64,000 nucleotides of DNA from Bolinopsis microptera (lineage: Eukaryota > Ctenophora > Tentaculata > Lobata > Bolinopsidae), in the NCBI RefSeq assembly GCF_026151205.1, contig NC_087084.1:13047453-13111452 (forward strand), read 5' to 3'. Below the pieces are notes generated by a model, which saw only the letters and a list, made by a program, of their open reading frames with translations, did not search any database and was not told the origin of the DNA. Shown here in pieces: positions 13,301 through 56,807 of the stretch (position 1 is the stretch's first letter; every line of letters starts with the position of its first letter). The position numbers and the translations under genes are program-made.

Positions 13301-14390
13301 TCCCGTGACATCTTTTAAATTCATACTTTAAAACCTTAATGTAAATCGGCTTCTCGTTCAAACCTTTTAAGAAGCTAACTTACAATATATTTATAAACAT
13401 ACATTTTCCAGATACTAATCCAGCGAACTTACAAGCATCAGTAGCAGTAGAAATAGAGCCCATTGTGGTATCCATGAAAGCTTTAGCTCCATCTGCGTCG
13501 TCCCCGAACTTCTTCTTGGCGACACGCGCAAGAGACTTGGTGATGCGCGCTGTGGCTCCATCGAGGATGTTTTGGTCAAGATCGACTAGTGTGACTCTAT
13601 GCCCTGTTTGTGCTGCTACCTAAGGTGGGTAGAACATGTTGAACATAATTCATTAGAAAATAATGTCTTTAAATTTATTTTCAAACAAATTAATGTTTGT
13701 AAACCAATAGAATACTAGGCTGTACCAAAATACTAACGTTTGTCCAAAATTAAAGAACGATTCCAGAAAGTTGTATTGGGTTACCGAGAGTTCACTTTTT
13801 TGGAGCCCTACTCCAAAATCTTAGGGTTGCTCTGCTCGTTTCCATGGTTACGGCCTAACGCGACGGTGCATGGACCCATAAATGCCATAACATGAGAACT
13901 ATAGCACCTAGACAGTCGAATAATAGCTTAAAAGATGATAAATGTGTATGTTTATGTTCAACTTATTGGTCAACTATGTGTCTAAAACATTTATTTAAAA
14001 GGTTATAGCGAAAAAAACTGATTTTCAACGCGTTTCCATGGCCACCGTTTTGGACAAACTTTAGTATTTTGGTACAGCCTAATAGAATACTCGAAACATA
14101 GTTTTAAACTAATTACAACTCTACAAGTACAAATCTATTACTTTTATTGAGAATTATGTGATGTAACGTGATGGAAATATTTTAAACGGGTCATATCCTG
14201 TCCAAACCCAGGATGCATAACATGATGAATTCGTTGTAACTTTGTATGAAAAGTAAAGTGTACTTCACTAACACATGGTGTTTACCTGGGTTATCCCGGA
14301 GCCCATTAGACCACCCCCAATAATAGTCACGTGACTGACAGATCTGGCACAGGACATAGCTCCCGTTACTAATCCTCTCGTGGCAAACAT
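1307..14390 (-). CDS. HADH: Mitochondrial 3-hydroxyacyl-CoA dehydrogenase, six exons
   Basis: Exons in transcript order: 14286-14390, 13433-13619, 10802-10902, 2972-3097, 1715-1877, 1307-1539. They sum to 915 nt (304 aa plus TAA), against 314 aa in human HADH; all junctions are GT-AG and phases close. Residues 1-20 ([20 protein letters not shown]) look like a mitochondrial presequence. A Rossmann motif ([13 protein letters not shown]) follows in exon 1. Exon 4 carries [10 protein letters not shown] and [15 protein letters not shown], with the catalytic His in HFFNPVP. Exon 5 carries [13 protein letters not shown], and exon 6 [18 protein letters not shown] and GEGFYKH. The enzyme oxidises L-3-hydroxyacyl-CoA with NAD+ in beta-oxidation. 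Intron 3 (3098-10801) is 7.7 kb and holds most of the repeats. The start codon lies in a 41-bp tandem repeat. Confidence 0.97.
2377..2664. repeat. Nested tandem repeat with palindromic TGACGTCA/CACGTG units
   Basis: A roughly 20-bp unit, GTGTGACGTCATGACACGTG, occurs three times and then four times. The blocks are separated by a larger unit beginning AGAAGGTAACAAAATTGTCG, seen three times in all. The inner unit contains the CRE-like palindrome TGACGTCA. It lies in HADH intron 3. Confidence 0.9.
4011..4266. repeat. (GTAACTAA)n microsatellite
   Basis: An eight-base unit GTAACTAA with scattered substitutions is repeated about 30 times in HADH intron 3. It lies close to the 14-bp minisatellite that begins near 4379. 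Confidence 0.9.
4379..5757. repeat. 14-bp minisatellite (CACTCCCTGTAACA)n
   Basis: About 98 copies of a 14-bp unit cover 1.38 kb of HADH intron 3. The complement has no stop in any frame, so all three minus frames stay open and give a 14-residue [14 protein letters not shown]-type periodic peptide. These overlapping frames are by-products of the repeat, not genes. Local variants (CCCTCTAAC at 5001-5070 and 5384-5430) suggest that higher-order blocks were duplicated. Confidence 0.95.
6423..6508. repeat. Left fragment of a 32-bp satellite (about 3 copies)
   Basis: Three copies of the unit that fills 7880-9704 (GAAATTAGATACTGTGCCTG plus TAGAAGTCTGT) stop abruptly after GTGCCTGC. The array resumes 1371 bp later, so the ORF1-bearing segment interrupts the satellite. 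Confidence 0.9.
6509..7879 (+). mobile_element. ORF1-only retroelement-like insert inside a 32-bp satellite
   Basis: This 1371-bp block separates the left three satellite copies from the main array. The left side ends GTGCCTGC and the right side resumes AGAAGTCTG, so only one T of the unit is missing; there is no clear target-site duplication. The block holds one intact ORF (6598-7509) and about 370 bp of AT-rich 3' sequence ending in GAAATCAAATC, which could be a short LINE-type tail. There is no reverse transcriptase. It may be a non-autonomous or truncated LINE, or an ORF1-derived gene. Confidence 0.65.
6598..7509 (+). CDS. ORF1-like protein of a non-LTR retrotransposon
   Basis: An intact 303-aa ORF. 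The ATG at 6598 is chosen because it is the first true ATG of the frame. Residues 1-70 are acidic and mixed. Residues 80-125 look coiled-coil (heptads in [20 protein letters not shown] and onward). Around residues 175-250 comes a basic/hydrophobic block starting [14 protein letters not shown], like the RRM-type core of LINE ORF1 proteins. A C-terminal block with [20 protein letters not shown] resembles the C-terminal nucleic-acid-binding region of such proteins. ORF1 proteins bind element RNA and chaperone nucleic acids. There is no partner RT ORF nearby. The frame is undamaged, so it is young or under selection. It lies opposite to HADH inside its intron 3. Confidence 0.75.
   Translation: MEDDRKVTQSLDQIQGFEYDEQTKLKDSVTKWFIALGKELKIDDRDICGDMDREIFMAPTVYKKHLALRLVEAIDLVQRHECQMAKMEEIIYFLKTEALEDKDKVIRLQGQLLVQKDKELQLFKTSVKETVQTTVESGIKSYSATVQQNSASGTVCNSNILKKVMKSVAAEEDRSKNLIVFGLKEEEGEQLPALVTAVLEEIGEKPHFEATRVGRKRPGSTTIRPVKITVPSSTAVQQILMKTGRLRLVETHKNVCICPDRSSEERATRKHLVTDLKKKRAEQTHLDHYIRYGKVCSREKKPP
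7880..9704. repeat. 32-bp satellite array, about 57 copies
   Basis: The unit is GAAATTAGATACTGTGCCTG followed by CTAGAAGTCTGT. Copies are nearly identical. A two-to-three-base deletion variant (GTCTGTAATTAG) recurs several times, and the block containing these variants appears twice (about 8240-8570 and 8960-9100), which points to segmental duplication within the array. There are no unique spacers, so this is not a CRISPR-type array. Confidence 0.95.
10523..10642. repeat. Dispersed repeat, copy 1
   Basis: About 120 bp beginning AAATTGAAGTTTAAGAACAC and containing AGTCATCCCAGAAACTATCA recurs nearly unchanged at 29975-30105, in an intron of the KH-like gene. Two copies in the same orientation, about 19 kb apart, indicate a dispersed family. 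The copies differ by small AT insertions. Confidence 0.85.
11161..12358. repeat. Tandem duplication of a ~500-bp unit plus a 186-bp inverted copy
   Basis: Unit 1 (11161-11653) and unit 2 (11654-12157) both begin TAATAAATAGTTGTTGTTTG and are nearly identical. After the first 14 bases of a third copy the sequence turns round: 12172-12358 is the reverse complement of about 11219-11404, so the end can fold back. Each unit contains GAGTGCTC...GGAGCAT twice and a stretch GTGTAGTGGTAGAGG resembling a tRNA A box, without a good B box. ACTTATAAGT flanks the whole block on both sides (about 11150 and 12359). It lies in HADH intron 2 and is probably a MITE or SINE-like element that duplicated. Confidence 0.85.
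13717..14080. mobile_element. 364-bp MITE with ~33-bp inverted repeats and an 11-bp target duplication
   Basis: The ends are inverted repeats, starting AGGCTGTACCAAAATACTAA at 13717 and ending with its complement at 14080. They differ at about one position over 33 bases. The element is flanked on both sides by the exact 11-mer AATAGAATACT (13706-13716 and 14081-14091). Long target duplications of 9-11 bp are typical of Mutator-like elements. It has no ORF and sits in HADH intron 1. Confidence 0.9.
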
Positions 14391-14534
14391 CCTGCACAAT
14401 ACTGTATTACTAATCCTCTCGTGGCAAACATCCTGCACAATACTGTATTACTAATCCTCTCGTGGCAAACATCCTGCACAATACTGTATTACTAATCCTC
14501 TCGTGGCAAACATCCTGCACAATACTGAATTACA
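14371..14534. repeat. 41-bp repeat x4 containing the HADH start codon
   Basis: Copies begin at 14371, 14412, 14453 and 14494. Each contains GGCAAACATCC, whose complement supplies ATGTTTGCC, the first codons of HADH. Only the copy nearest the gene continues into the HADH frame. The upstream ATGs (at 14431, 14472 and 14513) each open a 20-codon frame ending in TAG; the nearest overlaps the HADH start out of frame (14431 to 14369). Confidence 0.9.
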
Positions 14535-15002
14535 AATAGTTGCGTTTTGCATGACAATTCAGGTCGCAATTATTATATATAGATTACGTGATTTAGGTTT
14601 AAGGTGTTATGATTTTACGATTATATGAAACATAAAGTATGGGAACTTCATATTATTTTCATCGTAGAATTAAAAAATGTATCATCTAGGGTCGAATAAC
14701 TGCAGGATGAAGTAGATATTGTTAATTATGTTATATATTTTATGAGAATAAGGAGAAATGTACTCCTTTTCAATGAGCATGCAGTATTGATCTTGTTGTT
14801 ATCCACGTTTTCTATTAGAACTTCTAAAGTTACCACTGTTTAATTAGAATCTATCAGACTGATGATTGCTCATGATTTACAACTGCTCTGGCACAAACAG
14901 AAAGGTTTCTCTGATAAGTGGTAATCCCAGAGTAGCGATATTATAATCAGTAAACCATGGTCCCTATTATTAGTGAGCGTCTCCAACCCACCACAGACAG
15001 TA

Positions 15003-15114
15003 CAGTGAGACCTATCACCTGCAGTCTGCACAGTGAGACCTATCACCTGCAGTCTGCACAGTGAGACCTATCACCTGCAGTCTGCACAGTGAGACCTATC
15101 ACCTGCAGTCTGCA
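15003..15114. repeat. 28-bp tandem repeat x4
   Basis: Four exact copies of a unit beginning CAGTGAGACCTATCACCTGC lie upstream of HADH. Together with the next array they occupy the probable HADH upstream region. Confidence 0.9.
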
Positions 15115-15301
15115 CAATAACCTTGTAACCCTCCAACAATAGACCACAAGAATCCTGCACATACACCTCCCACTACAAATACAGCTATACATTTCAGCGC
15201 TTTTCACACCTTCCAGCCCAACAAAGAAGATTAGCGTCGTGCCTCTAACTACCCACCACTAATAACGATCCAGTGTCAACACAACACCAATCACAGTCCC
15301 A

Positions 15302-15471
15302 ATTGGCTGGTACCTGTCACGTGACTCTGCTAGAAGAGCTCTGATTGGCTGGTACCCGTCACGTGACTCTGCTAGAAGAGCTCTGATTGGCTGGTAACTG
15401 TCACATGACTAGACTAGAAGAGCTCTGATTGGCTGGTACAGTGGTACCCGTCACGTGACTCTGCTAGAAGA
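15302..15471 (-). promoter_or_regulatory. 42-bp repeat x4 with CCAAT and CACGTGAC motifs upstream of HADH
   Basis: Copies start at 15302, 15344, 15386 and 15428. Each has ATTGGCTGGTA (a CCAAT box on the minus strand), and three of the four have GTCACGTGAC, an E-box palindrome. The array is 0.9-1.1 kb upstream of the HADH ATG. CCAAT and E-box pairs are common in animal promoters, so a promoter or enhancer role is plausible; that is inference from the motifs and position only. Confidence 0.35.
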
Positions 15472-17255: not shown

Positions 17256-20200
17256 TTATCCCCAAGCAGGCTGAGTGGCATATTGCACTACCAATTTGTC
17301 ATTAGTCCCAAAACAGTCGAACAAGTTGCCCACGTGCTGATCTAGAGGGGGCGCGAAGTGTTGGGCGATGTACAGGATCACTTGTTCGTCCTGCGGTGTC
17401 GTTATGTTATGATCAACAAACTGAGAACTAATTGAGTGTTATTTGAACGTTAATTGAGTGTTAATTGAGTGTTAATTGAGTGTTAATTGAGTGTTAATTG
17501 AACGTTAACAAATGGAAATTCTGATATAAAATAATTGTTTAAATACAAATATGTTAATTAGCAGCACTTCAAATTCCTTACATCCTTAAGTTTGAGTTTT
17601 CCTTTGATCCAATTAGACATCCACTTAACCGTCTTATTTTTGTCCACCTGACGGGAATTATAAATTAACAAAATTAGATAATTGGGTAATTTTGCGTTTT
17701 TTAATTAACAGATTATTAACCAAATAAAATGCAAATAGAAGACCGTTTACATTACAAATTACGTAAGCCAGATTTTTGCCATTTCAGACCCCCCCCCCCC
17801 CCACTAGCACTATCTAACAGATAACCACTCTGTATAAACTATACTAGTGTGAGCATTTCAAAACTTTCTCCCACCTTGAGCTGATTACGTTATAACATGA
17901 ACGATCCCAAACAACACTTATTCAAAAGACCGTGTACAAAAACACAAAGGTATCAATTACAAATCTGACAATGTTCCTGCGTGTAGGCTAAAATTGTAAT
18001 TTGTAATTTAAACCCTACAATTGTAAGCCCCCATAACTCAAAGATATTCTATTTCGTTAAATCGATTCGTAAAATACGTATATTAACTGTTTGCGATTGC
18101 ACAACACTTTAATATGACATGTAACTGAAAGGTTTAACTAATATCCCATGTTAAACTCGGTTAGGAGGTTTAATTTTAAACGGTTCTTATGTCACCAACT
18201 ATTATGTGTTATAGTTATACGTCTGAAATAAATAGAACTTGAAAGTGGGTGAAAGTGGCAAATACATAAATGGGCGCATCTTACACGTTCATTTTTCTAC
18301 AACAGATAAATAAGATGGGACTTTATAATTAGCAATGCCACAGTATTTATTACTATCGTGATATAAGATACTGAGGTATATTATAGATGACTAGGGAGGG
18401 GGCCGGGGCCGCGGCCAAGGTAGGGGGTTTTGCTCAAGTACTCATGTTTCTTGAGTACCCCTCTTACAGACGTTGAGAAAAGCATGTATTCGTGATAACA
18501 TACCAACGTGACGATGACAAATTACAGATCTGGTATGATTTGTCTCTAACATATAAAAGTTGAGGGTTCAGGTAATGGTACCGTCTTAATGGTACACAGT
18601 GAACACCTGATAGCGCTAATAATCTGGCTGGCAAAGAATAGCTTTATAATAGCTTTAATATGTGCGGATATTGTATTTTACTTTCCGCAGAATCTTTTTG
18701 TTTGAGAAGTAAGCAGGACTATTGTTACCTACTGAGCTGTGCACCATGCCGGGTAGGCTCATCAGAGATAAAGCAGTATACAGCAGAGATAAGCTGTTCA
18801 TGAAGAAGTGGCACTGTCATGGTAGTTGTAATGATACCCTGACAGCTGTACACACAATACAGTGAGTATACACGTCCGCACTCCGCACACACCGTGTTAT
18901 GTAACTAGACACACTACACACACTACACACACTACACACACTACACACGCTACACACACTACACGCACTACACACACTACACACACACACACACACACTA
19001 CACACACTACACACACTACACACACTACACACATTAAACACACTACACACACTACACACACTACACACTACACACTACACACACTACACACACTACACAC
19101 ACTACACACTACACACATTACACACTACACACGCTACACACACTACACACACTACGCACACTACACACGCACGCCCAGTGTAACTAGATACACATGACAT
19201 CACCCTCTCACTTGTACAGCACCTGTAAAGACAGCTAAGAGGTTGGAGTAGCTATTCTTACCTTCACACTAGTAGGGATGCGTTACTTATACGCCAAACA
19301 CCCCGGTAAAATTAGATCAGGCCAGGGTTATTCGATTTTTGGAAAATTTACAATTTATATGGGATTAAACTTCCCCGGAGATTCAATGTAAAATAGAAGA
19401 GAATATTTAGCGTTCGTTCTAAGTATAGGATGGCTACCTCATTGGTCAGAGTTTGTTTTAAAGAGAATGCAAGCGAAGGAAACCGGTAACTTCCATGCTT
19501 TTGTAGTACCGTTTATAATTTAAACAAATATTAACCAAACTCTGTGTTGTTTGCGGTGCTGGACTAAAAGCGTATTATAGTTTTGCTATGCATGATTTAG
19601 GATTTTATAAACCTCTCACTATACAATATACATTAAAGGGGCAGGAGGGTCTTTATGAAATTTCTCTCGAAATTGATTTTATAGTTGTTTCTGATAGAGG
19701 AGAGTGATATCTACTAGTTGTTTTTTGTCCCATGGAAAAAGTTTGTTCCTAGCCGAAATTATCGCCAGTCAAAGGTCAGCACTCATGTGTAATTGTATTG
19801 CCCGAGCGATTTTCAATCGCGCGCCCTGAAAATCGAGTCTAAAAATCTATTTAAATAATGACCGACGTTGTACATATTATAATGACAGACGTTGTACATA
19901 TAATTATGTAGAACACACGATACAAGGTGTACAGCAGTAAGTTACGTAGTGTTTGTTGGTTTACACGCCAGATTTGTGGAGGTATGCAGTACCCTGTACC
20001 TACATAAACATGCTACAAGTGATCATTAACCATGACGTACAGAATAACAGAATACTCCCGCTTTGGAACCCACCACACCCTACTAGAGTACTAGGAACCT
20101 ATTAGGAACCTACTAGAGTACTAGGGACCTACTAGGAACCTACTAGGAACCTACTAGGAACCTACTAGGAACCTATTAGGAACCTACTAGGGACCTACTA

Positions 20201-23200
20201 GGAACCCACCACAACCTTCTAGAGTACTAGGGACCTACTAGGAACCTACTAGGAACCTACTAGGAACCTACTAGGAACCTACTAGGAACCTACTAGGAAC
20301 CTACTAGGAACCTACTATGAAGCTGATAATCCCGCGTTTAACCGGCCACCACTTTCTTTTTGAGGGACATTTGGAAATGAAAGAGGATACATGATCTTCA
20401 ATTCTGAATTCCGATGATTAGTATACTATTGACATCATACGTGCGTCATGTAAATTGTAAGTCATAACAATAAAAGAAAATTTGTCAATCTTAACTGCTG
20501 AGTAGTGAGAATTAAGGATTAACAGTGTGTTGTTAAACTTCAATATTTATATTAATATTTATTTATGTTACTCTTCTGTGCACGTCAGTGGTAGGATGCT
20601 CATCGAAAAACGCGACAGAAAAGTCAAAAGTGGCAAATTTATTTCTCAATATACTGCTTAAAACCGTGCTACACTTTGATCTTAAGCCACGCGTCTCCTC
20701 ACTAATGAATTGATGGCAGCCAGGAAGTTGCTGGGAACTCCAAAACTGATAAGATTACAAAGGAGCATACAACTAAACTAGCAAATTCCAGGATTACACA
20801 TTATGACTATCTTGACCTTGCTAGATTCGATTCTATGAATGATTGAGTTAAATAAATTTCTTATAAAACTTTAAAATACAAATTTTCAAAACATCGGATA
20901 ATATTATAATTAAATGAGATCTTCGTCTAACAATTATTGTTACAAGAAAACATCCGGGTGTTTGGAGGGTTATGAATTATATAACAGTATTGGTAAATTT
21001 AGATGTACAACATGAACATGGAGCTATTTTCAAGTAACCGTTCGTTATTTAACCACTCCCCTACGGATTTGTTCTACATCTGCTCAACAATCAAAATGCC
21101 GTTCTGAACCACACTTCACTAACCATTCACTGTGACACACGTGATATTTCTGACCCGTGGTATTCTAGAATACATGCTAATTGCAGACGGTAACCTTTTA
21201 GTACCTCAAATTGCAATTGGTAACTCGTATGTATATTGGAGGTGCTGTAACAGGTAACAGGGTATTTGGTAACATTTACAATGTAAACTGGGAACAATAT
21301 AAACGCTTACATTACCGTGGTTATGGTGGTGGTTATTGTGGTTATGGTGGTGGTTAATAGTATTTTATCTAGTATGATGCAATAACTATCACCACCATCT
21401 GTGATACCTCTATGTTTCAAACCCTGTTTGAGTGATTACATCTTTGTTAGAACTATGATAAATTATTTAGCCATATTATGAAACAATTGAATATCGAGTG
21501 TCATTAGGTATCATCTCATAGCCGACCTAAAGCTATACATAATGGATCATGAAACACACTAGGTACATACAGCAATACACAATACACACAATATAATAAT
21601 ATACAATATATACACTACACCTCAAAATAATGTATAATTTTGGGTTCTACATTATGCTGCATACTGTGTTAATTATAGCGTCTTGACTACCTGTCGTCAC
21701 TGTTAATTAATTACAAAACTCTGACTTCAGGCTTCAAGACAATTCTACAACATTCCATCACTTTTTACAAATTTTAACGATAAATGCGCCCCCTACTACA
21801 CATCGCAGCTAGTGTACAACATCTAGCCAGTACGCCAGTTTAAACCCAAGTAACTGTGTATCCGCATCTCTCCTGCCATGATTTCATAGTAACTAACTGC
21901 ACAGTCTGCATGACAGTGTGATTATGACACAAGGATAGCCGGGGATGACGTAACCGTGACAGAAACGGCCGCCCTGCGGAACGCGGCTGCAACTGTCAAG
22001 CCGTACAGTTCAAACTGGACCACTGAGCGGCAGGTGTTGGCAAAAGTTTTGTAAAAACTGTGAGACCTGGTGAACAACACCCTTGTCATGACCTCCCAGA
22101 AACCCACTACTAACTAGTAAATCAGTGATCCCGACACACAAACACGATGGTCACCGTCCGGTGTCCCCCGAATCCCAAAATGGAAGGGTCAAGAAAGGAG
22201 GTGTAAGGAAAGTTCACGATGTAATAATGAAGCCGTAGAAGCAGCAACAAACAGGAGCTAGTAAGAGAGTGGACAGGTGACAACTGCGGCCGACATGGAG
22301 TAAGAGTACTGGTCACTGGAGAGGGTAGTTTATAATAAACTGTTATAAATATATTATATATTACTTGTTGTTAAACTGCAGGATCATGATGGTATGAAAT
22401 TATGTGGTGAGGTATTTTAAGAGCCGGCGTAAAGTTGACGTCTGGCTTTCTCCTCCAGAGAAAGAACATTCTGATTACAACTGAAAGCCACATAAAAACC
22501 TCAAAACTAAAAGTTGAAGGTGTAATTTACAGTGATGTCAGACAGAATCTTTAACTCACTTCACTATTCTACACTAGTTATGAGCTAGACTATCCTTACA
22601 TTATCCTTACACTATCTTACACTATCTTACACTATCTTACACTATCCTTACACTATCCTTACACTATCTTACATTATCCTTACACTATCTTACATTATCC
22701 TTACACTATCTTACATTATCCTTACACTAATTATGAGCTGCACGGTGGTATGTAAAATAAAGAGTTACAATTGGTTGGAAGATCAACCTGGATCAGTATG
22801 CAACCTACTAAAACCAATGGAGCCCTCTTCAGGGTCATTCCTCTCGCATTTGCGAGAGTCGTCCCAAAGCTTCATTTTACTTAATTACTATACTCATAAT
22901 TTACTCATAATTTTTTGTCTGAACACAGCATGGTGATATAAAGTTATAAATTAACTGCTACATAACATAAATTAGCTGCTACATAACCCTGCAATAAATA
23001 CCTACTAAAGTGACGCCTAGAGAACACGGTCACTAATATTAAATATAGAAGTATTCAAAACTTTACTGGCTGTAGATAAATTGAGGTCGGCTAGCTACGA
23101 ATGAAACATTATATTATGTGTTACTATGGTTGACTTATTACTACACACTATACAGTATACATACAGTATACATGTATGTTTTCATGGTCACTGATAAAGT

Positions 23201-24884
23201 CTACATTATGAAGACGCACATTAATTAATGCAACAATATCTTACATAACATTTACTTACACTGTTTAACATATCTGTGACTGGCACGTGTCAATATATTC
23301 CAGGCACGTGTCAATATATTCCTGGCACGTGTCAATATATTCCAGGCACGTGTCAATATCTAACTGGCACGTGTCAATATATTCCAGGCACGTGTCAATA
23401 TCTAACTGGCACGTGTCTGATTTTACTCACGTTGTACTTCTGTTTCTGGAGTATAGGGGCGTTTCCCACATTCCGGAGCACCACAGCTATTTTATCTGAC
23501 GCTGGGGCTGCAGCCTTCTGAAACAGTGTGAATGTATGTACTGTGTATAATGTACTGTGTATATTGTACTGTGTACAGTGTACTATACACAGTGATAAGG
23601 GGTATGTACACTGTACACTGTACAGTGATAAGGGGTCGTTCACAAATTACGTAATCAGCCGAGGGGGGAGGGGGTTTCCAAATGATTACGCTAGTGTAAT
23701 TTTGAGACAATAGCAATGTGTAAAACTGATTACAGATTACGGAGAGAGGGGGGTTGAAAATTGTCCAAAATGTTATTACGAAATATGTGATCGACCCCCA
23801 AGAGACTTTTCCTTGTCGCAATAAACGGGAACACTACAAATTTTGCCCCAGAATCATTACACAAGGGACTACTAAATTTTCCGATCCGGATATTACATAC
23901 AGTGATAAGCCATCTTAAGAATTACAAATATATCTCATTATTTATTATTGTAAGTGCATGAGAGCATGAGATTAAGTTTTCTCCTTTTCAGTCTTTTGTA
24001 ATCACTTGAAACAACCCTGAAAACTAGGCCCTGAAAATTAAACCCTGAAAATTAAACCCTGAAAACTAAACCCTGAAAACTAAACCCTGAAAACTAAACC
24101 CTGAAAACTAAACCTTGAAAATTAAACCCTGAAAACTGAACCCTGAAAACTAAACCCTGAAAACTAAACCCTGAAAATTAAACCCTGAAAACTAAACCCT
24201 GAAAATTAAACCCTGAAAACTAAACCCTGAAAATTAAACCCTGAAAACTAAACCCTGAAAACTAAACCCTGAAAATTAAACCCTGAAAACTAAACCCTGA
24301 AAACTAAACCCTGAAAACTAAACCCTGAAAATTAAACCCTGAAAACTAAACCCTGAAAACTAGGCCCTGAAAACTAAACCCTGAAAACTAGGCCCTGAAA
24401 ACTAAACCCTGAAAACTAAACCCTGAAAATTAAACCCTGAAAACTAAACCCTGAAAACTAAACCCTGAAAACTAAATCCTGAAAACTAAACCCTGAAAAC
24501 TCCACCCAGATTTCAATGACTTCAATCTTGCCGAAGTGCAACATAGCATTATAAGCTTTAGATTTGACTAATGAGTGTTTTTATGATACTAAATTTAATT
24601 AACTTATAAAAGTGGGAGGAGTGGACAAAAGCTGATAAGTGATAACAAACTGTTAATACCCACATCAGTATTATATATATTATATAATATATAACAATTA
24701 TTGAACACTACTAGTACTAATGCACGGATTACTCATTATAATTGTCATAATATAAAAGTGCCTCATTCATAAATCATTACAGCATACAGTAGAAAAATTC
24801 AGCAGAAATATTTATAATTACAACAGTAACCTTCTTGGTCGCTTCACTTGACGTCTCATCTTTACTTTCGTTTTCTTCCGCCAT
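17256..24884 (-). CDS. ATG12: Autophagy ubiquitin-like protein ATG12, four exons
   Basis: Exons in order: 24831-24884, 23431-23517, 17582-17647, 17256-17390, all phase 0 and GT-AG. They give 113 aa, against 140 in human, with a shorter N-terminus. The protein starts MAEENESKDETSSEATKK. The ubiquitin-like fold begins KIAVVLRNVGNAPILQKQKY and continues VDKNKTVKWMSNWIKGKLKL. It ends with YIAQHFAPPLDQHVGNLFDC, then FGTNDKLVVQYATQPAWG and TAA. The terminal Gly113 needs no processing. ATG7 and ATG10 activate it and join it to ATG5; the conjugate with ATG16 promotes ATG8 lipidation. Intron 2 (17648-23430) is 5.8 kb and repeat-rich. The gene lies 1.0 kb downstream of the KH-like gene on the same strand. 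Confidence 0.95.
17431..17510. repeat. 12-bp repeat (GTGTTAATTGAG)n in ATG12 intron 3
   Basis: Five to six copies with one GAACGTTAATTG variant at each end. Confidence 0.85.
18905..19172. repeat. (ACTACACAC)n microsatellite in ATG12 intron 2
   Basis: A 9-bp unit with CA expansions; both strands are free of stops in some frames, giving Thr/His-rich or Cys/Ser/Val-rich spurious ORFs. Confidence 0.9.
19648..19850. repeat. Dispersed repeat family B, copy 1
   Basis: About 200 bp from GGTCTTTATGAAATTTCTCT to GAGTCTAAAAATCTAT recurs at 52824-53029 with about 85-90% identity by eye. Both copies follow a G-rich run. Both contain GCGATTTTCAATCGCGCG, a near-palindrome. No ORF; probably a transposon remnant or SINE-like family. 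Confidence 0.85.
20056..20318. repeat. 11-bp repeat (CTACTAGGAAC)n in ATG12 intron 2
   Basis: About 20 copies, with a longer variant block (CTAGAGTACTAGGGAC) repeated two to three times within it. Confidence 0.9.
20319..22590. other. Unassigned part of ATG12 intron 2
   Basis: No exon or transposon terminus recognised. A GGTTATGGTGGTGGTTA duplication lies at about 21321-21358. A GC-richer stretch at 21940-22320 contains ORFs on the minus strand with no family resemblance. Confidence 0.4.
22592..22728. repeat. Short tandem repeat (TTACACTATC/TTACATTATCC)n
   Basis: About 13 copies of a 10-11 bp unit with alternating C and T variants, in ATG12 intron 2. Confidence 0.85.
23279..23418. repeat. 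21-bp repeat with CACGTG, ending 12 bp from the ATG12 exon 2 donor
   Basis: Six to seven copies of GGCACGTGTCAATATATTCC or a variant ending ATCTAACT. Each copy has the E-box core CACGTG. The last copy stops just before the GTGAGT donor of ATG12 exon 2 (exon start 23431). Confidence 0.9.
23632..23799. mobile_element. Short MITE with GGGGTCG termini
   Basis: The left end GGGGTCGTTCACAAATTACG and the right end (complement of ATTACGAAATATGTGATCGA plus CCCCC) form an imperfect inverted repeat of about 24 bp. The interior is about 120 bp and non-coding. No clear target duplication. In ATG12 intron 1, 115 bp upstream of exon 2. Confidence 0.7.
24014..24502. repeat. 14-bp repeat (AACCCTGAAAACTA)n, about 35 copies
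   Basis: Fills much of ATG12 intron 1. ACTA/ATTA and AAA/AGG variants occur in phased groups. Confidence 0.95.
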
Positions 24885-25923: not shown

Positions 25924-28900
25924 CTAAAACCGGTAATCTCCGAAAGTTTTCCATTGATGGTACTGCTGTCTACCACACGCTAACCAAGTAGGAGTACCTC
26001 CATCTGCTGGGTTCATGTTATGCTGGTCACTATTGTAGCGCGGGGGACCGATATCACTGTAAGTATTACTGACAGTACCGCTGTAAGTATTACTGTAAGT
26101 ATTACTGTATGTACTGGTGTGTCTGTGTCGAGGGTGAGGTATGTAGAAGAAGAGTGAGGGCAGGGTGTCAGCGTGTGTGGAGGTGACAAGTTCTTCTACC
26201 AGCTGTCTGAAGAGGAAGACATGGTTTAAGTTGGAGGATTACATAGTTGAAATAGTTCTAGTTGAAATGGTTGAAGTTGCGCAAGATCAGGACATGGCAA
26301 TTTCATATCTATTCATTTAACAAAAGATTCACACACGTATTATAGTGCTATAAATATCGCACGTGCACTATAAATATCGCACGTGCACTATAAATATTGC
26401 ACGTGCGCCGCGCGAAGGAACACTATCTGACCTAAGTCCATCCCTCATCTGTTGTCTGTGCCCAGTAACACTGATAACACACTCTCCCTCTACTGTCCCC
26501 TCATCTAGTTGTATCCACACCCCGTTACTTTCCTCCACGTGCTGTATTACTCTCTTTCTCTTGCGGAACCGTAGTAACTGAGGGAGTTGTTTTTAGGGTT
26601 AATTATATGCTTTACAGATATTAGTATATACAATATAATATACGATTTTGAAAATTAATATTGATACATAATACTTATCAATATTAATTTTACTAACATC
26701 TGTAGCATGAATCATAGTAGCATGGATTATACAAAATAAAACGACGGATTACGTCAAATATTCTACATCTTAGTTATCACTGAGAAGATCATATTGTTTT
26801 GATCGAAGCTTTTGTTTGACGTAACTCGTCGTTTCATTTTGTTTCCGCTCTCGGCTAGCCGATAAGCACTGTCAGCAGACGACGCCTCTCAAAGTATAAT
26901 ATCAGGGATATCGAGGTTGTAAAGCATTGTTTATATTCGAGGCAGTCTCCTAAAACGGAAGTTTCAAATGAACGAATACAGATAAACCGTCCAACATAGA
27001 TCACAAATTATTAAAACTCACCTAAAATTAACAACAACCTCTAATATCGACTAACCTCTGAAGTAATCATAGCAGGCATAACAATCAACATAGTCTCTTC
27101 CCGGGTTTTGCCCACGCTGTTTCTTCTTCTGTCAAAATGCTTGCGGAGGTCCTCTGTTATAGTGTACAAACATTCCAGTACCTGGTATTTATAATTATGT
27201 CTATGATTTGTTTATTTTTGAAAATGGAAAAATCTACTTCAAATCAGATATGTCGCCCATTTTAAACTTTTATATTCAAACTGAGAAAGGCTTACAATTG
27301 AACTCGACGCGTAATTCTAATATGGTCTGAATTGTTGTATAATTTAATATAACATGTACATTGTAAATATCATAATTTGCTGCTAGTATATAATACTATA
27401 ATAATATTAAAATGTTGTACCTGTTTGGGACTACCCTTCAGATAAACCTGACACTCTTTATACACAGGGTAGAGGGTTTTAGTGAACCGTAACACACGCA
27501 ACCTGCAGGGTAGAGGGTTTTAGTGAACCGTAACACACGCAACCTGCAGGGTAGAGGGTTTTAGTGAACCGTAACACACGCAACCTGAATGGCAGGGTAG
27601 AGGGTTTTAGTGAACCGTAACACACGCAACCTGCAGGGTAGAGGGTTTTAGTGAACCGTAACACACGCAACCTGCGGGGTAGAGGGTTTTAGTGAACCGT
27701 AACACAAGCAACCTGCAGGGTAGAGGGTTTTAGTGAACCGTAACACATGCAACCTGCAGGGTAGAGGGTTTTAGTGAACCGTAACACACGCAACCTGCAG
27801 GGTAGAGGGTTTTAGTGAACCGTAACACACGCAACCTGCAGGGTAGAGGGTTTTAGTGAACCGTAACACACGCAACCTGCAGGGTAGAGGGTTTTAGTGA
27901 ACCGTAACACACGCAACCTGCAGAGTAAAGGATTTTAGTGAACCGTAACACACGCAACCTGCAGAGTAGAGGGTTTTAGTGAACCGTAACACACGCAACC
28001 TGCAGGGTAGAAGGTTTTAGTGAACCGTAACACACGCAACCTGCAGGGTAGAGGGTTTTAGTGAACCGTAACACACGCAACCTGCAGGGTAGAGGGTTTT
28101 AGTGAACCGTAACACACGCAACCTGCAGAGTAGAGGGTTTTAGTGAACCGTAACACAAGCAACCTGCAGGGTAGAGGGTTTTAGTGAACCGTAACACACG
28201 CAACCTGAAGGGTAGAGGGTTTTAGTGAACCGTAACACACGCAACCTACAGGGTAGAGGGTTTTAGTGAACCGTAACACACGCAACCTGCAGGGTAGAAG
28301 GTTTTAGTGAACCGTAACACACGCAACCTGCAGGGTAGAAGGTTTTAGTGAACCGTAACACAAGCACCTGCAGGGTAGAGGGTTTTAGTGAACCGTAACA
28401 CACGCAACCTGCAGGGTAGAGGGTTTTAGTGAACCGTAACACACGCAACCTGCAGGGTAGAGGGTTTTAGTGAACCGTAACACACGCAACCTGCAAGGTA
28501 GAGGGTTTTAGTGAACCGTAACACACGCAACCTGCAAGGTAGAGGGTTTTAGTGAACCGTAACACACGCAACCTGCAGGGTAGAGGGTTTTAGTGAACCG
28601 TAACACTGCGGTAATTCCTTAGTGAGCAAAGATGTTTTTTACAGTAGTTTGTTACAATAAAAGGTGTTTATAAAAGGTGTTTGTTAAAGGTGTTACACTG
28701 TTACAGGTGTTAAAGGTTTTTGTTACAGCTACTAAACTAAACTCTCTCCAGGAGGCAGGAGGTAAGTTATAAAAATGGATGGTATTTTTTAAACACTGCC
28801 TGTAATTCATATCGAAAGTGATAGAATATTCTACAGTATTCTCGAAGGCGAAAAGATTTTATTTTTAAATTCTAAGTGTATTAATTAATAATTACCCTTC

Positions 28901-32824: not shown

Positions 32825-32888
32825 TCACGTGAGCTGTGTCACGTGTCGTCATCACGTGTCGTCATCACGTGACGTCATCACGTGTACA
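32825..32888. repeat. CACGTG(T/A)CGTCAT repeats, array 1
   Basis: Four to five copies of a 12-14 bp CACGTGTCGTCAT-type unit combining an E-box with a CRE half or full site. It lies downstream of the Rap2-like gene and upstream of the KH-like gene. Confidence 0.8.
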
Positions 32889-33050
32889 CAGTTTATCTAG
32901 TAGTTAGTCTAACAGTGAGGCACAATGCAATGATTACACAACAAGGAGAATTCATCAAACCTATTAAATCTTGCAACACAATATTATGAGGATGAGGATG
33001 ATTTTAGGACATTATAAGCGTTTTGGTTCCATGCACAGATGCCTGCAAAT

Positions 33051-33114
33051 CACGTGACACTACACGTGACGTCATCACAACACGTGATGTCATCACAACA
33101 CGTGACGTTATCAC
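33051..33114. repeat. CACGTGACGTCATCACAA repeats, array 2
   Basis: Four copies of a roughly 19-bp unit with CACGTGACGTCATC or one-base variants, in the probable 3' UTR of the Rap2-like gene. Confidence 0.8.
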
Positions 33115-33197
33115 CAGACACCAGACTAACAGTTACTACAGACAGGGGCACGATGTCCCACACTCGTGTATCTTTTAAAAACATTACAAAATGTCCC

Positions 33198-33767
33198 TCA
33201 CAGGATGGTACACTTTGATTTCTTGCCCCTGCGCCTGTGCCTACCATAGCTCTGGATTGGGATCCTCTCCATCTCCCTCACTAGAGCGGTGAAGATGTCC
33301 TGAATACCGATCTCTTGTTTAGCTGATGTCTCAAAAAACGGGCACCCCCACTGCTTTGACAACTCCTTGCCTTCTTGGAAACTTGCTTCACGCTGGTCTT
33401 CCAGATCTTTCTTGTTTCCCGCCAAAACTATCGGAACTTCGTCCACATGCTTGATGTTCAGTATAGTGTCCTTTAACGTTGACGCGTCACGCAGAGAATG
33501 ATAGTTAGCGATGGAGTATACAATAAGGAAACCCTGTCCGTTCTGAATGTAGAGGTCTCTCATACTGACAAACTGCTCCGTTCCCGCTGTATCCAGTATT
33601 TCAAGACATATGGGAGTGTTGTCTATTTCGGTGTCTTTTCTGTAGAAATCCTCGATGGTAGGATCGTATTTCTCTACGAAGGTTCCGCAGCAGTATTGGA
33701 CGGTTAGAGCACTTTTACCGACTCCTCCTGATCCGAGGACCACTATCTTGTACTCTCTTCGAGGCAT
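33198..33767 (-). CDS. Rap2-like small GTPase
   Basis: A single coding exon of 189 aa; Rap2 proteins are about 183. The P-loop is GSGGVGKS (residues 12-19). Switch I is [11 protein letters not shown], with Phe41 at the Rap2-specific position (Phe39 in Rap2, Ser in Rap1). Switch II is DTAGTEQF, with the Rap-type Thr where Ras has Gln61. Base-binding motifs are GNKKDL and ETSAK. The tail is strongly basic ([12 protein letters not shown]), then CTIL, a CAAX box whose Leu predicts geranylgeranylation. Rap2 GTPases act at membranes in adhesion and cytoskeletal signalling. ATG at 33765-33767; the CTTATAG just upstream looks like an acceptor, so a 5' UTR intron is likely. The two extra N-terminal residues and basic tail make it a divergent Rap2 or Rap-like paralogue. 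Confidence 0.93.
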
Positions 33768-35086
33768 TTTCCTATAAGCAGTGGGGTGGTTAGAATATGA
33801 AGTTATTAATTAAATATTTAATTAATTAAATATTTAATCAATTATTGGCTGACAATACACTTGTACGTGTTGTATAAAGATCACAAGATTAGCTTTTAGT
33901 TCTTAAATATATTATTAAAACAGATGTAAATTTGATGATACTTTGACATTGAAAGGCACTCAACAGGTTTGGACGATTGGGAAAATACTTAAGAGTCGAA
34001 TAAAAACTAAGGAACGAATTGAATAACGGTATATTATACTGCAAGGTGTACACTGTACAGTGCAGTATTATTAAAATATTATAAACTCGTTGTTATAAAA
34101 CAGCGTCGATAACGATAATAATTTATTGTTAATAATGGTGACAATAATTTAAATTTGTTGGCGAATAGAATAATATGAACTGGAATATAATTGATTATTA
34201 AATAATTGATAACTTGTGGGATAGTGCTAAGATAAATCTTAGAAACCTTCAGACTTTTTTTAAAGCAGTCATTTAGAAAACTATCTTGACTGTTTTCTAC
34301 AATGCTAAACAAGAATAAAGTTAGCATGCAGCTTAGGTGTTTTCTCAGAAATAACATATTAGGTAACTTATCCAAAATATATTCCGATAAGTAACGGACT
34401 TGCTAGTTGCTGCTATTCTGAATATAAAATCGTATTTCAAATTAAGCGTATTCTTTAACATAATAACATAATAATTTGATGTAGTGAATTGTTAAATAAT
34501 ACACGTTTAAATTACACGCTACAAAAAAAATGGTTAAAAACGATTGTGATTTATACTTTAATAATGCAGAGTAAAAAATACGATAAAAAATTGTTTGATA
34601 AATTTCCGTTTGGGGACACCACATTTGGAATAGTTTTGAGAAATATTTATCACTGATTATAAGGTTTCAAACCTGCAGTCTATTATAAATATCGATAAAA
34701 TAAAATCTATCTTAAACAAAACTCGGCAGTATCGAAGTAACCCGCCCCTGCCCACGGACAAGCTGTCCGTGGACACCTGCCGGCGGAAAGGGGCGGGCTA
34801 TTTGGATACTGCCCGAAATTCTGCCTCAAACCTTGGCCTTGGGTTACAAAAATAAGATTAACAAATTGAAAAAACAACTGAAAATCTGCTAACAATTCAA
34901 AATATACACAGAAGAGATCAACAACTCTCTGTACTGGTCTAGCCAGAGTAATAATTCAACAAGTAACACTTCATTATACGTGGTTATTTATACCAAAACG
35001 TTTATCATGAGAACAAATATGTGTTCTACACAGTAACCACATATTTGCAGTAACCATACAGTAACCACACTTCTACAGTAACCACA
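33768..35086. other. Intergenic between TRIM-NHL 3' end and Rap2-like gene
   Basis: About 1.3 kb, very AT-rich (TTAATTAAATATTTAATTAA duplicated at 33805-33845). It holds one hairpin element at 34722-34822 and nothing else recognisable. Confidence 0.5.
34722..34822. mobile_element. ~100-bp GC-rich hairpin element
   Basis: The arms CTCGGCAGTATCGAAGTAAC and the complement of TATTTGGATACTGCCCGAAA pair imperfectly, followed inward by CCGCCCC/GGGGCGG. The centre has its own perfect hairpin, CCACGGACAAGCTGTCCGTGG. It stands out against its AT-rich surroundings. Probably a miniature inverted-repeat element; no coding capacity. Confidence 0.7.
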
Positions 35087-35104
35087 CTACAGTAACCACA
35101 CTTT
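35041..35104. repeat. Short repeat (ACAGTAACCAC)n overlapping the TRIM-NHL stop codon
   Basis: About five copies of CAGTAACCACA. The copy at 35087-35104 encodes the last codons and TAG of the TRIM-NHL gene (Val-Trp-Leu-Leu-stop on the minus strand). Confidence 0.75.
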
Positions 35105-38100
35105 GTGGTTGCCAGTATCACATACGGCCACATTGCCATCTTTGTCGACAGCCACAGCCAGGGGCTTCCTAAGGGTGGTGGCTGCTCGTTCTAGGGTAAT
35201 AGATCGGATGAAGGTTCCCTTACTATCAAACACCTGAAGTAAAACACTATCAAACACCTGAAGTAAAATTTGAAAAATTTTGTAAATTTAGTGTTACATA
35301 AATTCATCCTTGATAGCGTAGGATGGTATAAATCTGAGTCGTTAGTAAGCGACATAACACTATTTACACGATTCACTATCTCATTATTCAATTCAAACAG
35401 GTTACTTCAACATTTTAATTGATCGGGGGCCGTGTACGGCAACAACACGAAAAATATTTTTAAATTAGATTCACAAGGAAATAAGATAAGTAAGTTTCAT
35501 AATTGCATACCTGTATACGGTTATTATCACAGTCACAGACAAACACATTGTCACAAATATCCACAGCTAGATCTGAAGGGAACAGGAACTCTCCATCACC
35601 AGAACCTGACAATGAATTACCGATAGAAGATTAAGAATGCCTTAGTTCCCAAATATTGTGCGACGAAAAAATTGGGCGGTCCTCTCGCCCGGATTCAACA
35701 AAAAAAACGAAAGAGCATCTTATTGGACGGGCCCTTTTACCACAAGTAAAGATAGCTGTAATAACTTATGAAGGAGTATGAAAATTAGCGAAAGAGCTAG
35801 AAGAAGCAGAAGCAATTAATCAAAACACAAAATGGGGGCCGACTATTTTCTGTCTAACTTCAAATTTTAAGGTTCACCTGAAAGAAAAATGAACTTAAAG
35901 CCACCCTTACCCCCGCGCCGAACGAACCTTTTTTGCCGAAGTGAGTGATGTATTGTCCCGGTTATCTTGTAAGCAGTGATACGGTGCAGTTCCGTATCGG
36001 TCACGTACACGTTATCTAGGGAGTCTAACGATACTCCGCTCGGTGTCCGCAACTATCGGATAGTGCGATTATTACATTTTTAGTGCGATTATTACATTGT
36101 TAGTGCGATTATTACATTCCAGGTGCGATTATTACATTCTCAGTGCAACAGATACATTCTCGGCGAATTGCCAAACTATCAGATTAAGATCAAAACGCAA
36201 TCCTCTTCAAAACAATACACGAGTGCAGTAGTAAGATTTGTGCGTCAAACAAAAGACAAAAGACACCAATTCAAAATACCCAAACAAAATACCCAAACTA
36301 CTAATCTAAAAGCATGTACAAACATTCTTCTCCAGAATCAACTTTATAAATAGAGTTGGAAATATGTTATTAGCCGAGCCAGAGCATGACTTTAAGGGGG
36401 CTCAAAACGGGGGAGAACACGTCTTATTAGGTGGGATTAATATTTAAGAATTCTTTCGGGTGAAGTTATGCTGTTCATTAATTAGCAATCTATGATAAGC
36501 CCTAATTAGGTTACATTTAAAAGAGGAAACTAATTAGCTAATTAGCTACCTGTCCTGGAAGAGCACCTTCTTCGCCAATAGTTCTCAAATAAACACCTTC
36601 TCGTGTGAAAACCTTCACCTGCGAGGGTTTGTGTGACAACCAGTTAGTGTAATACTAGAACAATGGTAACAAAACGTTGAAACATTATATCAATCAACAC
36701 GAGACATTAATTAGGGCTTTTCTGAAAACAAAAACGTAGAGATCAAAGTTATGGAAGATCTCATCCTTTTATTTTTATAGAATAGTAACTGTGGGGCGGT
36801 GGTGCAAGTGCCTCTGACAGCGATAAATTAATTAGCTTGCAAGCTTACAGTATTCAAATTATTAAATTCCAGAATCACTGTCATGCCCCATGAGTCACCA
36901 TTACCTTGCCCCACCTCCCCACTAGTATTATCATCGTGTCATAATCTCTGGTAATAGTTCCCCGGGATACTGGTAATACTGAACCCAAATATGTATGGGA
37001 ATATTATGCTAATTTCGGCTTCAAGTAATAACAACAAGATGAAAAGAGTAAAGGTTAATATGACAGAAACAAGGCTGTAGACACGCGCTGACACAGTGTC
37101 ACCCTGTGTTATTCACATTGTCATTATGATAAGAATAGACAGCAGACTAGACAAACGCACAAACTGGCTAGTTCCAGTAACCAATAGGGGGAATATTAGT
37201 AGACAGCACGGTGGTAGTATTAGACAACATTAGGCAACGTTAGGCAACGTTAGGCAACGTTAGGCAACGTTCAAACTAAGCAAATTGAACTGAGCTTGTA
37301 GTGCTTCAAGCTAACATCTGATATAAAATGCAATACTAGTTCTACTCAAATGACAAAGCAACTAGTGACAAAAGCTCAAGCAAACAAATCACGGAATGGT
37401 TATCAAATGATCAGAACAAGCTACAGACGCTCAATCAAAGCGGGTGCGGGGTTGCAGCGGTACCTAATTAAATGATCACAATCACGTGAAAATCTTCAAA
37501 CATATAAACTGTGCTTTGATCTGACCACCTTTATTTTCTTCAAATCACCGTCTTTAACAGTCGCTGGTAACTACACATTCCTTTCAGGTAACTACACAGG
37601 TAACTACACATTCCTTGCAGGTAACTACACATTCCTTGCGTGAGCCAGGTCTGAAAATGTAGCTGAAGAGGTTGAGGTTAGTCAGGTGGGTGTGAAGTTT
37701 AATTTAGAAAATTAGGAAATTATTTTAACTTTAATGTACTGAGTAAAAGTGGTGGAGCTAGCTTATTTTGAGAAACGTGAAATAAGGGGCTTAACTGGAA
37801 ATTGGTTAATAAATGGATTAAGTTAATTGATTGATTAATTTAGGAGAAACCAACACAGAGTGCATGCAAATCAGATGCAATGTCAAAAGAGAGAAGAGCG
37901 ATTCATTCTTAGAAATTATAAAGACTAAAGAGCTTTTAGATAGATATAAGCAATTCAGCATTCAATAATTTAGGAAATATCATGAACAACACAATAACAT
38001 AATTCTTAATTCTCTTCCCGGATCATTAGTTCAAATAGCTGTTTAATTTGATGGACGAACAATTTGTTATTTGCAAAACACCAAATAAACGATGCTGTCT

Positions 38101-41100
38101 ACTGAAAAGTGAATTATTAAAATCTAGAAACAAAACACGAAACAAAGAAACCATATTCGTAACACAACCTGTGCAATGTGCATTGGCAACTTCAAACAAA
38201 ATCGTATCAAGAAAAGGTATGAAATTAGCATTAACGACTAAAACGCATGTATCAAATTAAACTGTTACAACGTTCGATCGACAAAATACTGATTGATATC
38301 ACAAAATAACTGGACGCATAATCAAATACAGTACGATGAGCAATAATAAACGCGATAAATGTATCACTCGTACCATGACGTTTCTATGAGTTTCATTTTC
38401 ACTCTAGGAATGCAAGGACATATCTACAGTGTAATTAATTCTATTCAGAATTGCACAAATACATACCTGCCCAGCGTAAAATGTTCAACATTATATGCGC
38501 GAAATCGCTTACAGTAATTCAAAAAGAGAGCTGGTGGAGATGGGATAGCAGAAGAGGAATTAAAGCTGATAAAATCAAGACACAGACATGCAGTGTAATT
38601 AACTAATTGATTAGCTAATTACAGTGTAATTAACTAATTAGACAGTTAAACTCACACAATGATTAGTGGTATCAGCAACCACCACCAGCCCGGTCCTGCT
38701 TATCTCAACCCCACGTGGGCCCTTCAACTCTACATCAGCTGGGTTCAGCTTTCTGGGGAGGTGCGTAAAACTCAACATTAAATACTCAACTCTACATCAG
38801 CTGGGTTCAGCTTTCTGGGGAGGTGTGTAAAACTCAACTTAAATACTCAACTCTACATCAGCTGGGTTCAGCTTTCTGGGGAGGTGTGTAAAACTCAACT
38901 TAAATACTCAACTCTACATCAGCTGGGTTCAGCTTTCTGGGGAGGTGTGTAAAACTCAACTTAAATACTCAACTCTACATCAGCTGGGTTCAACTTTCTG
39001 GGGAGGTGTGTAAAACTCAACTTAAATACTCAACTCTACATCAGCTGGGTTCAGCTTTCTGGGGAGGTGTGTAAAACTCAACTTAAATACTCAACTCTAC
39101 ATCAGCTGGGTTCAACTTTCTGGGGAGGTGTGTAAAACTCAACTTAAATACTCAACTCTACATCAGCTGGGTTCAACTTTCTGGGGAGGTGTGTAAAACT
39201 CAACTTAAATACTCAACTCTACATCAGCTGGGTTCAACTTTCTGGGGAGGTGTGTAAAACTCAACTTAAATACTCAACTCTACATCAGCTGGGTTCAACT
39301 TTCTGGGGAGGTGTGTAAAACTCAACTTAAATACTCAACTCTACATCAGCTGGGTTCAACTTTCTGGGGAGGTGTGTAAAACTCAACTTAAATACTCAAC
39401 TCTACATCAGCTGGGTTCAACTTTCTGGGGAGGTGTGTAAAACTCAACTTAAATACTCAACTCTACATCAGCTGGGTTCAACTTTCTGGGGAGGTGTGTA
39501 AAACTCAACTTAAATACTCAACTCTACATCAGCTGGGTTCAACTTTCTGGGGAGGTGTGTAAAACTCAACTTAAATACTCAACTCTACATCAGCTGGGTT
39601 CAACTTTCTGGGGAGGTGTGTAAAACTCAACTTAAATACTCAACTCTACATCAGCTGGGTTCAACTTTCTGGGGAGGTGTGTAAAACTCAACTTAAATAC
39701 TCAACTCTACATCAGCTGGGTTCAACTTTCTGGGGAGGTGTGTAAAACTCAACTTAAATACTCAACTCTACATCAGCTGGGTTCAACTTTCTGGGGAGGT
39801 GTGTAAAACTCAACTTAAATACTCAACTCTACATCAGCTGGGTTCAACTTTCTGGGGAGGTGTGTAAAACTCAACTTAAATACTCAACTCTACATCAGCT
39901 GGGTTCAGCTTTCTGGGGAGGTGTGTAAAACTCAACTTAAATACTCAACTCTACATCAGCTGGGTTCAACTTTCTGGGGAGGTGTGTAAAACTCAACTTA
40001 AATACTCAACTCTACATCAGCTGGGTTCAACTTTCTGGGGAGGTGTGTAAAACTCAACTTAAATACTCAACATCTTAAAAACTGAAGATCATCTACAGTG
40101 TCATCACTCATCATCATTTAGAAATAAATTTTAAATTAAATCAATCATTGAAACTTTATAATGGTGGATTATTAGAGTAGGAAGGAAAATGGCTAACATT
40201 TTCTTGGGGAGGTATGGATCACTTGTTTCACGCTTAGTCACATCAGACTTAGTCTCTAAAGAGTCTCTACTATCTCTACGAATGTAAGAGTCGTAGCCTT
40301 TCCTTTTAGAATCTCTGTGATGGTGATTATCACCTGTGAATGTGAAAATGTGATTATTTGGGGTATTAATTGCGTTCCAATCTCGATGTTGTACGATAAT
40401 TGAGATTAAAAACTTACGATAATTGAGATTGAAAACTTACGATAATCTCTGGAATCCCTGTAGTCCCTGTAATCCCAGGAATCCCTGTAGTCACGTGAGG
40501 ACCTGATGTGATCTCTGGTGGAAACACTGAGCCCAGCTGATTTGTAGTCGTAGTATCCCGCTGGTGATCTGTGTTCATCGGACTGTGAAGAGTAAATTGA
40601 TTATAGAATTGTACCAGATCAAAATTAAATGCAAGACAGGAAGTCGATTTTAGCCTTTTTAAGGCAAACATTCCATGTCATTATTGAATGATTCTAATTT
40701 AGGTGTTTTTTAAAAGTTGGATCAATGAGAAATACGTACCCGGTAAGGTTTGCGGTGAGCTGTATCAACAGGACTACCCTCCAGAGAAGAAGACCTCTCC
40801 ACGGAGTGTCCTATCACGGGTGAGTGAGGCTGTGTTTTACCTCTCGCTCCTATTTCATGTGTAAATTTACCCTCTGAGGATATTTTGTTTTAACAAAAAA
40901 CTCCCACGCACAGAGCTAGAGCTTGTAGGTAAAATAATCGTGTAATTTAAGAAGCTTTAACTTGTGATGGAGGTAGATTTGCAAAATAAACGTCGACTTA
41001 CTAGGGCTGTAAAATAAATGTCAACTTACTAGGGCTGTAAAATAAACGTCGACTAACTGGGGCTGTAAAATAAATTTAGACTTACTGGGGCTGTAAACAG

Positions 41101-56108: not shown

Positions 56109-56807
56109 TTAGTTGTTCAAGCTGCCTGAGTTCAGAAAGTTTGCCAAAGGGGCCCAGGTATTCTTGTCACCTTTACCCTGAGACGAGAGAATGACTTTTT
56201 TTACCTTTGATTTGAATACACCATGAGTGATTTCAAGGTCGTTCAGTGCCAACATCTGACGGAATGAATTCCAAAGGCAACTAGATTTGTAAACGAAACT
56301 GTTTGAGGGCATGGTTGTTATAAGAAGAGTTTCTTTGCCGGGTCTTTTAGACAAACAGAAAAGTTCAAATAGTGCAATTGGTGTTCGATATTTAAAGACT
56401 TTAAAAAGTTCATTGCAGCAGTGATACGCGTATAAATTATGCAATGTCATGAGTGATTGACGGGCAAAAATTGGCTTGGTGTGCTCTCTCTCAAAGAATT
56501 TGCTCGTAAGTTTCTGTTCACTGATAGGTCTAGTCCTAGCACATGTCATAAATTTATCAAGGTATGCTTTTTTGTCACCAAACATGATACGAACACACTT
56601 TTTCTGGGCTACAAATAGTGGTTGAAGTTTATTATTACTTGCACCTCCCCAAACGGTAATGCCATAAGATAGGTGACTTTCAAACAGTGTGTGGTACAGG
56701 TCCTTATGGATAGATGATGGAATTTTATCCTTAATCATGTACAGCCTCCCAGAACAGGACGAGAGTTTTCTAACTAGTTTGTCTCTATGGGGATTGAAAG
56801 TTAGCAA
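56109..56807 (-). pseudogene. 5'-truncated LINE reverse transcriptase, C-terminal part
   Basis: About 230 codons from LTFNPHRDKLVRKLSS onward. Conserved points are GRLYMIKDKIPSSIHKDLYH, then LSYGITVWGGA, then KKCVRIMF, then HNLYAYHCCNELFKVFKYR. This is the thumb and C-terminal region of RTs from CR1/Jockey-type non-LTR retrotransposons. Homology begins abruptly near 56804; upstream sequence in the same frame does not look like RT, so the copy is 5'-truncated, as is usual for LINEs. The reading frame of the remaining part is intact. The palm domain with the catalytic Asp residues is absent, so it is inactive. Confidence 0.85.

Follow-up and report, generated by a model that had tools for sequence, protein, structure and literature searches.

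Minisatellites across splice sites in Bolinopsis microptera: overlap near random expectation and a possible bias of tandem duplication towards exon edges

The window, i.e. the whole 64-kb stretch of Bolinopsis microptera DNA analysed here, carries minisatellites in and around several genes, and these host genes were rebuilt on its minus strand. The HADH, TRIM-NHL and ATG12 models, predicted from the sequence, are supported:

1307-14390, minus strand: predicted HADH gene, 6 exons, 304 aa, open frame
17256-24884, minus strand: predicted ATG12 gene, 4 exons, 123 aa, matching ATG12 structures (E=1.6e-16)
35087-44246, minus strand: predicted TRIM-NHL gene, 17 exons, 917 aa, open frame, with RING, B-box and NHL

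The first 131 aa of HADH match HADH structures at 1e-33, and the TRIM-NHL boundary exons 13 and 17 each match NHL alone (3.7e-5 and 6.4e-7, respectively). A KH gene also passes the Pfam cut-off (KH_1, 22.9 bits, 7e-5; matched residues 101-144), but its model is without the 5' part and the KH_1 match does not cover exon 4, so that the exon 4 acceptor is provisional. An intronless Ras-family GTPase gene lies at 33201-33809 (Pfam Ras, 1.7e-52), and at 56109-56909 on the minus strand a 266-codon open frame resembles, by eye, the final part of a non-LTR reverse transcriptase.

A TRF run on the window recovered all the arrays and duplications that a sequence-only reading of this DNA had named, and it placed the following arrays at or near gene boundaries:

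14366-14537, minus strand: 41 bp x4.2 array containing the HADH ATG (14390-14388)
17429-17501, minus strand: 11 bp x6.6 array, 8 nt from the ATG12 exon 4 acceptor (last intron base 17421)
23279-23417, minus strand: 21/42 bp array, 13 nt from the ATG12 exon 2 donor (first intron base 23430)
27465-28606, minus strand: 41 bp x27.8 array over the presumed KH-gene exon 4 acceptor (last intron base 27503)
35030-35103, minus strand: 14/28 bp array containing the TRIM-NHL stop codon (35087-35089)
35222-35268, minus strand: 24 bp x2.0 duplication containing the TRIM-NHL exon 17 acceptor (last intron base 35234)
36061-36159, minus strand: 20 bp array (with a 40 bp TRF row), 8 nt from the TRIM-NHL exon 15 acceptor (last intron base 36053)
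38724-40071, minus strand: 61 bp x22.1 array containing the TRIM-NHL exon 13 acceptor (last intron base 38753)
40392-40446, minus strand: 23 bp x2.4 array containing the TRIM-NHL exon 11 donor (first intron base 40440)
40983-41097, minus strand: 28 bp x4.1 array containing the TRIM-NHL exon 9 donor (first intron base 41085)

Five window arrays thus contain a splice site (four without the KH array), one a start codon (HADH) and one a stop codon (TRIM-NHL). The sequence-only reading had listed six arrays that include a working boundary; gene models support five of them, whereas the KH acceptor is only provisional. It had also put two further arrays within 8-12 bp of a splice site, which is right for the one at 36061 (8 nt) but not for the one at 23279 (13 nt), whose neighbour it did not recognise as ATG12, and it had placed the HADH ATG at 14371 when its position is 14390-14388. 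The array near the ATG12 exon 4 acceptor and the one over the TRIM-NHL stop codon are additional to it. Coding arrays with a unit that is a multiple of three are found in the last exon of the KH gene (12 bp, 26052-26113) and in TRIM-NHL exon 11 (9 bp, 40443-40489).

The HADH array is the only case of a start codon inside an array. Each of its four 41 bp copies carries an acceptor-like gcag/G one base ahead of its ATG, at the 27th-37th percentile of the acceptors sampled below, and each of the three upstream ATGs begins a frame of 20 codons; these ATGs could be eliminated if splicing used the acceptor-like site of the last copy. In the ctenophore Hormiphora a spliced leader is reported on 56% of Iso-Seq reads (PMC8527503). 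The Hormiphora spliced-leader pattern, searched in the Bolinopsis genome with up to 3 mismatches, gave 376 matches against 321 for the control and is hardly enriched, and trans-splicing at the HADH ATG is therefore a guess. Two introns of this gene show other repeats. In intron 3 a 329-aa open frame (6520-7509), for which Pfam gave no match above the cut-off, is flanked by 2.7 copies (6424-6508) and 57 copies (7880-9705) of one 32-bp unit, as if an element had entered one array; in intron 2, between 11200 and 12480, a segment of about 500 bp stands twice in tandem, by eye.

Whether boundary arrays are too frequent for chance is a question for a wider sample. The assembly comprises 264.65 Mb in 232 contigs, of which C1-C13 (15-26 Mb each) make up 97.5% and C14 measures 0.2 Mb. 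We picked 56 loci by exon density, not by repeats, through a Pfam search of the assembly with the myosin, TCP1, tRNA synthetase, kinesin and dynein AAA_6 families. Of the 295 matches listed, the 260 in fetched stretches entered, one straddling two loci being left unplaced. PF00171, which yielded few introns, and PF00443 were left out of the sample, locus L057 was excluded from the counts, and PF12781 dynein loci were left out of the replication because many of their matches are whole-domain single exons. Splice sites between neighbouring exon matches were inferred from the frame, from the continuity of the profile and from a splice-site score for which the introns of the first 43 loci served as training set, with GT and AG required; the other positions follow the usual consensus, with G at -1 in 83% of donors and C at -3 in 88% of acceptors. 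The first set retained 164 of 177 introns tried, 13 being dropped (score 8 or lower, or no solution). The second set, obtained by seeking missing exons in the first-set loci with blastp (23 found; tblastn gave 0), gave 31 introns, of which 7 were dropped on the same grounds; it shares its loci with the first set, whose result was already known when the second was designed. Combined, the sample outside the window holds 74 intronic arrays and 188 introns. Arrays called by TRF cover 17.6% of the window; in the first 43 loci their share is 13.9%, and 13% of the genome is reported for Hormiphora (PMC8527503). Introns are short, with a median of 208 bp, or 177 bp for array-free introns when the window is included. 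Some intronic arrays come with transposons: of two near-identical kinesin paralogues (L001, 1241-2171; L002, 1218-1226), one has an intron that holds a 931-bp insertion; this insertion is bounded by inverted terminal repeats (39 bp or more), is accompanied by a 9-bp target duplication (TGTGTCTTG) and contains three called tandem arrays.

The expected number of arrays that contain a splice site was calculated by placing a founder unit of length u at random, i.e. as 2(u-1)/(free intron+2(u-1)+1), summed over arrays. Such strict overlap was found for 9 of the 74 arrays against 7.9 expected (188 introns, P=0.39), with 8 against 6.9 in the first set and 1 against 1.05 in the second. The window itself, with 31 arrays in 28 introns, gave 5 against 3.0 (P=0.15), or 4 against 2.3 without the KH array (P=0.17). 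The proposal that splice-site-containing arrays are too many for chance is thus not borne out by the sample, and the argument behind it, the small exon fraction, used the wrong quantity. The correct one is unit length over collapsed intron length, a simple yardstick for judging whether there are too many boundary overlaps: exons are few in the window, yet the units are long for introns that collapse to 158 bp (61-bp array) and 292 bp (KH array). A unit of 20-60 bp will often straddle an edge because arrays fill 14% of the loci and 18% of the window and because introns are short. Since strict overlap is near this geometric expectation, the six or so boundary arrays need no special mechanism. 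Among stronger arrays (TRF score of at least 80) strict overlap was somewhat high, 9 against 5.1 (P=0.04), and the gene-level interval of the ratio (0.48-2.02 for the first set and 0.68-2.03 once the window is included) is compatible with an excess of up to about two-fold, power being limited.

The architecture of the boundary arrays is uniform. In all 14 that contain a boundary the overlap with the exon is shorter than one unit, so the extra copies lie on the intron side; as only 3 of the 14 have a unit whose length is a multiple of 3, extra copies are not retained as coding sequence. All 14 agree with the suggestion that an array is tolerated by selection as long as one copy of the boundary survives, but tandem duplication yields that arrangement almost automatically. 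Of the intronic arrays, 17 have 10 copies or more; collapsing the repeats leaves an intron of 105-292 bp for 7 of these, including 4 of the 5 boundary-containing ones. One array in a kinesin intron (locus L011, 672-2417) has a 33-bp unit x52 and holds the working donor, and its intron collapses to 105 bp. Within the window the copies have splice sites of about equal strength. The 61-bp array holds 22 acceptor copies, and the KH array 27, above the 10th percentile of sampled acceptors, and in the former the 21 upstream acceptors score 9.4 against 8.6 for the exon-proximal one, so site strength does not mark the correct copy. Judging from reading frame and homology, the exon-proximal copy would be the site in use.

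We consider it probable that these mirage-type minisatellites, named after similar arrays in amphioxus (see below), are ordinary tandem duplications whose founder unit straddled or touched an exon edge by chance and then grew in copy number. A founder unit of 20-60 bp would often reach an edge since introns are short. When an edge-spanning segment is duplicated, a complete edge would stay at the exon and the extras would enter the intron or the untranslated region; extra copies there leave the protein unchanged and are thus tolerated by selection. Correct splicing would then require the choice of the exon-proximal copy among many near-identical sites, and the likely selector is exon definition, with the closest sites paired across the exon, as a preference for the splice sites closest across the exon is described for long introns (PMC9225289). 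By analogy with amphioxus, the boundary arrays are presumably spliced normally. They also offer natural tests of spliceosome choice among 20 or more near-identical sites.

The geometric null leaves one observation unexplained. When arrays that overlap a splice site or end within 12 nt of one are counted together, 23 of the 74 qualify against 12.2 expected (P=0.0003, uncorrected; the 12 nt limit was taken from the sequence-only reading, and limits from 0 to 100 nt were also viewed). The excess is present in the first set (18 against 10.5, P=0.006) and in the second (5 of 9 against 1.76, P=0.013), persists at TRF score limits of 36, 40, 50, 60 and 80, and keeps a ratio of 1.88 when genes, which cluster in the sample, are resampled (95% interval 1.36-2.54). 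It is concentrated right at the edge: among the 65 wholly intronic arrays, 14 lie 0-12 nt from a splice site against 4.6 expected, about three-fold, compared with 7 against 6.2 at 13-30 nt, 4 against 8.7 at 31-60 nt and 9 against 8.3 at 61-100 nt. Strict overlap alone would have read as pure chance; the edge bias was revealed by a threshold-free position test, in which the folded position V in the first set had a mean of 0.372 against 0.5 expected (KS p<0.001, 65 arrays; intron middles unmasked for transposons). Donor and acceptor sides contribute 12 and 6 arrays in the first set, and 16 and 13 when both sets and the window are pooled, counts that speak neither for nor against a cause polarised by transcription. 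The spike at 0-12 nt, but not the splice-site-containing arrays, hints at a bias towards exon edges, mutational or selective, such as the sequence-only reading had proposed. It may be, and we put this forward only tentatively, that splice sites, donor and acceptor alike, are places where tandem duplications begin or halt: array ends fall within 12 nt of one about twice as often as expected at random, and three times as often for wholly intronic arrays. If true, exon edges would be a source of minisatellite birth or a barrier to it, and short introns would have a route to become long ones.

What could produce the spike? One candidate is duplication targeted to edges by transcription, replication or repair at exon borders, with selection partly removing copies of whole splice sites. 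Both counts above, their stability across score limits, the gene resampling and the second set speak for it, and the spike may perhaps reflect just such edge-biased duplication combined with selection against full splice-site copies. Yet strict overlap is not clearly raised, the window alone shows no significant excess (7 against 4.7, P=0.14), the second set shares the loci of the first and was built after its result, and without the genes L004, L011 and L053 the ratio falls to 1.64 (1.08-2.29), that of wholly intronic arrays being 2.34 (0.99-3.59). We regard this explanation as possible but rather doubtful. The bias could instead arise if intron middles had been diluted by younger inserted DNA, so that arrays born in short ancestral introns now seem to be near an edge. 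A transposon-like insertion did enlarge one kinesin intron, and the bias is larger in introns above 500 bp (mean V of 0.349 against 0.438). Dilution however predicts an excess across some 0-60 nt, whereas that observed is confined to 0-12 nt, and introns with at most 400 free bases are biased as well (8 against 2.5 at 0-12 nt in the first set); arrays borne by transposons far from the edges would in turn weaken the bias rather than create it. On this evidence dilution is an unlikely source of the spike.

Two further explanations concern the arrays themselves. If array copies had lost their splice site and been homogenised, the called array would halt before the working site. The copies in L053, with GCAC in place of the GCAG of the working acceptor, look like such inactivated decoys, but periodicity stops before the exon: the 15 near edges have a mean z of -0.03, with 1 of 15 at p<0.05, compared with a mean z of 1.13 and 45 at p<0.05 for 213 far edges, and window arrays keep intact splice-site copies. 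Since no periodicity runs through the splice site into the exon, decoy inactivation is largely refuted, and we give it very little weight. The arrays might also have made the introns, which in the Rogers model are born from a duplicated AGGT segment. Boundary repeats in amphioxus globins have been proposed as sources of new introns (PMC3087553), and the KH copies carry cag/gtt, so that a single unit has both signals. However, the KH exon model is only provisional, and none of the 14 boundary arrays has both intron ends in copies of one exonic segment, each reaching only one end, which makes this origin barely credible here. Chance placement followed by copy-number growth thus remains our preferred reading for the boundary arrays.

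The phenomenon itself is already known; the ctenophore lineage, the null model and the spike at 0-12 nt are the additions of this study. In amphioxus, minisatellites across exon-intron boundaries were described as mirages, with RT-PCR suggesting normal splicing and with somatic instability reported (PMC3087553, PMC3902484). Among the open-licence papers listed in our literature searches, we saw neither a test of how arrays are placed relative to splice sites nor a description of boundary arrays from a ctenophore. The Bolinopsis arrays match the mirages in their defining traits: a unit crosses the exon-intron boundary in 5 arrays of the window (KH provisional), 8 of the first set and 1 of the second, and all 14 have the authentic boundary at the exon with the extras in the intron, the window frames being open. 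Unit sizes overlap as well (10-72 bp in amphioxus Adh3), donor or acceptor is spanned, and many copies keep intact splice signals, as described in amphioxus. They differ in lineage and in copy number (2 to 52, against 3 and 6 in the two BflGb6 haplotypes), and the amphioxus cases are single genes, whereas the Bolinopsis arrays come from a genomic sample of one assembly and are judged against a null model. As described for human paralogues in segmental duplications, minisatellites with a unit of some 30 bp also sit at exon-intron boundaries (PMC2812944), but there exons are altered or new introns appear in recent paralogues, whereas in Bolinopsis the repeats multiply one splice site of an intron that is already present. 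The potato RdRp gene likewise has a duplication reported across an intron-exon boundary (PMC4974935), while the Bolinopsis arrays show no sign of a new intron. Mirages, described in amphioxus, are thus extended to a ctenophore, and the spike at 0-12 nt, if upheld genome-wide, would tie exon edges to minisatellite formation and intron growth.
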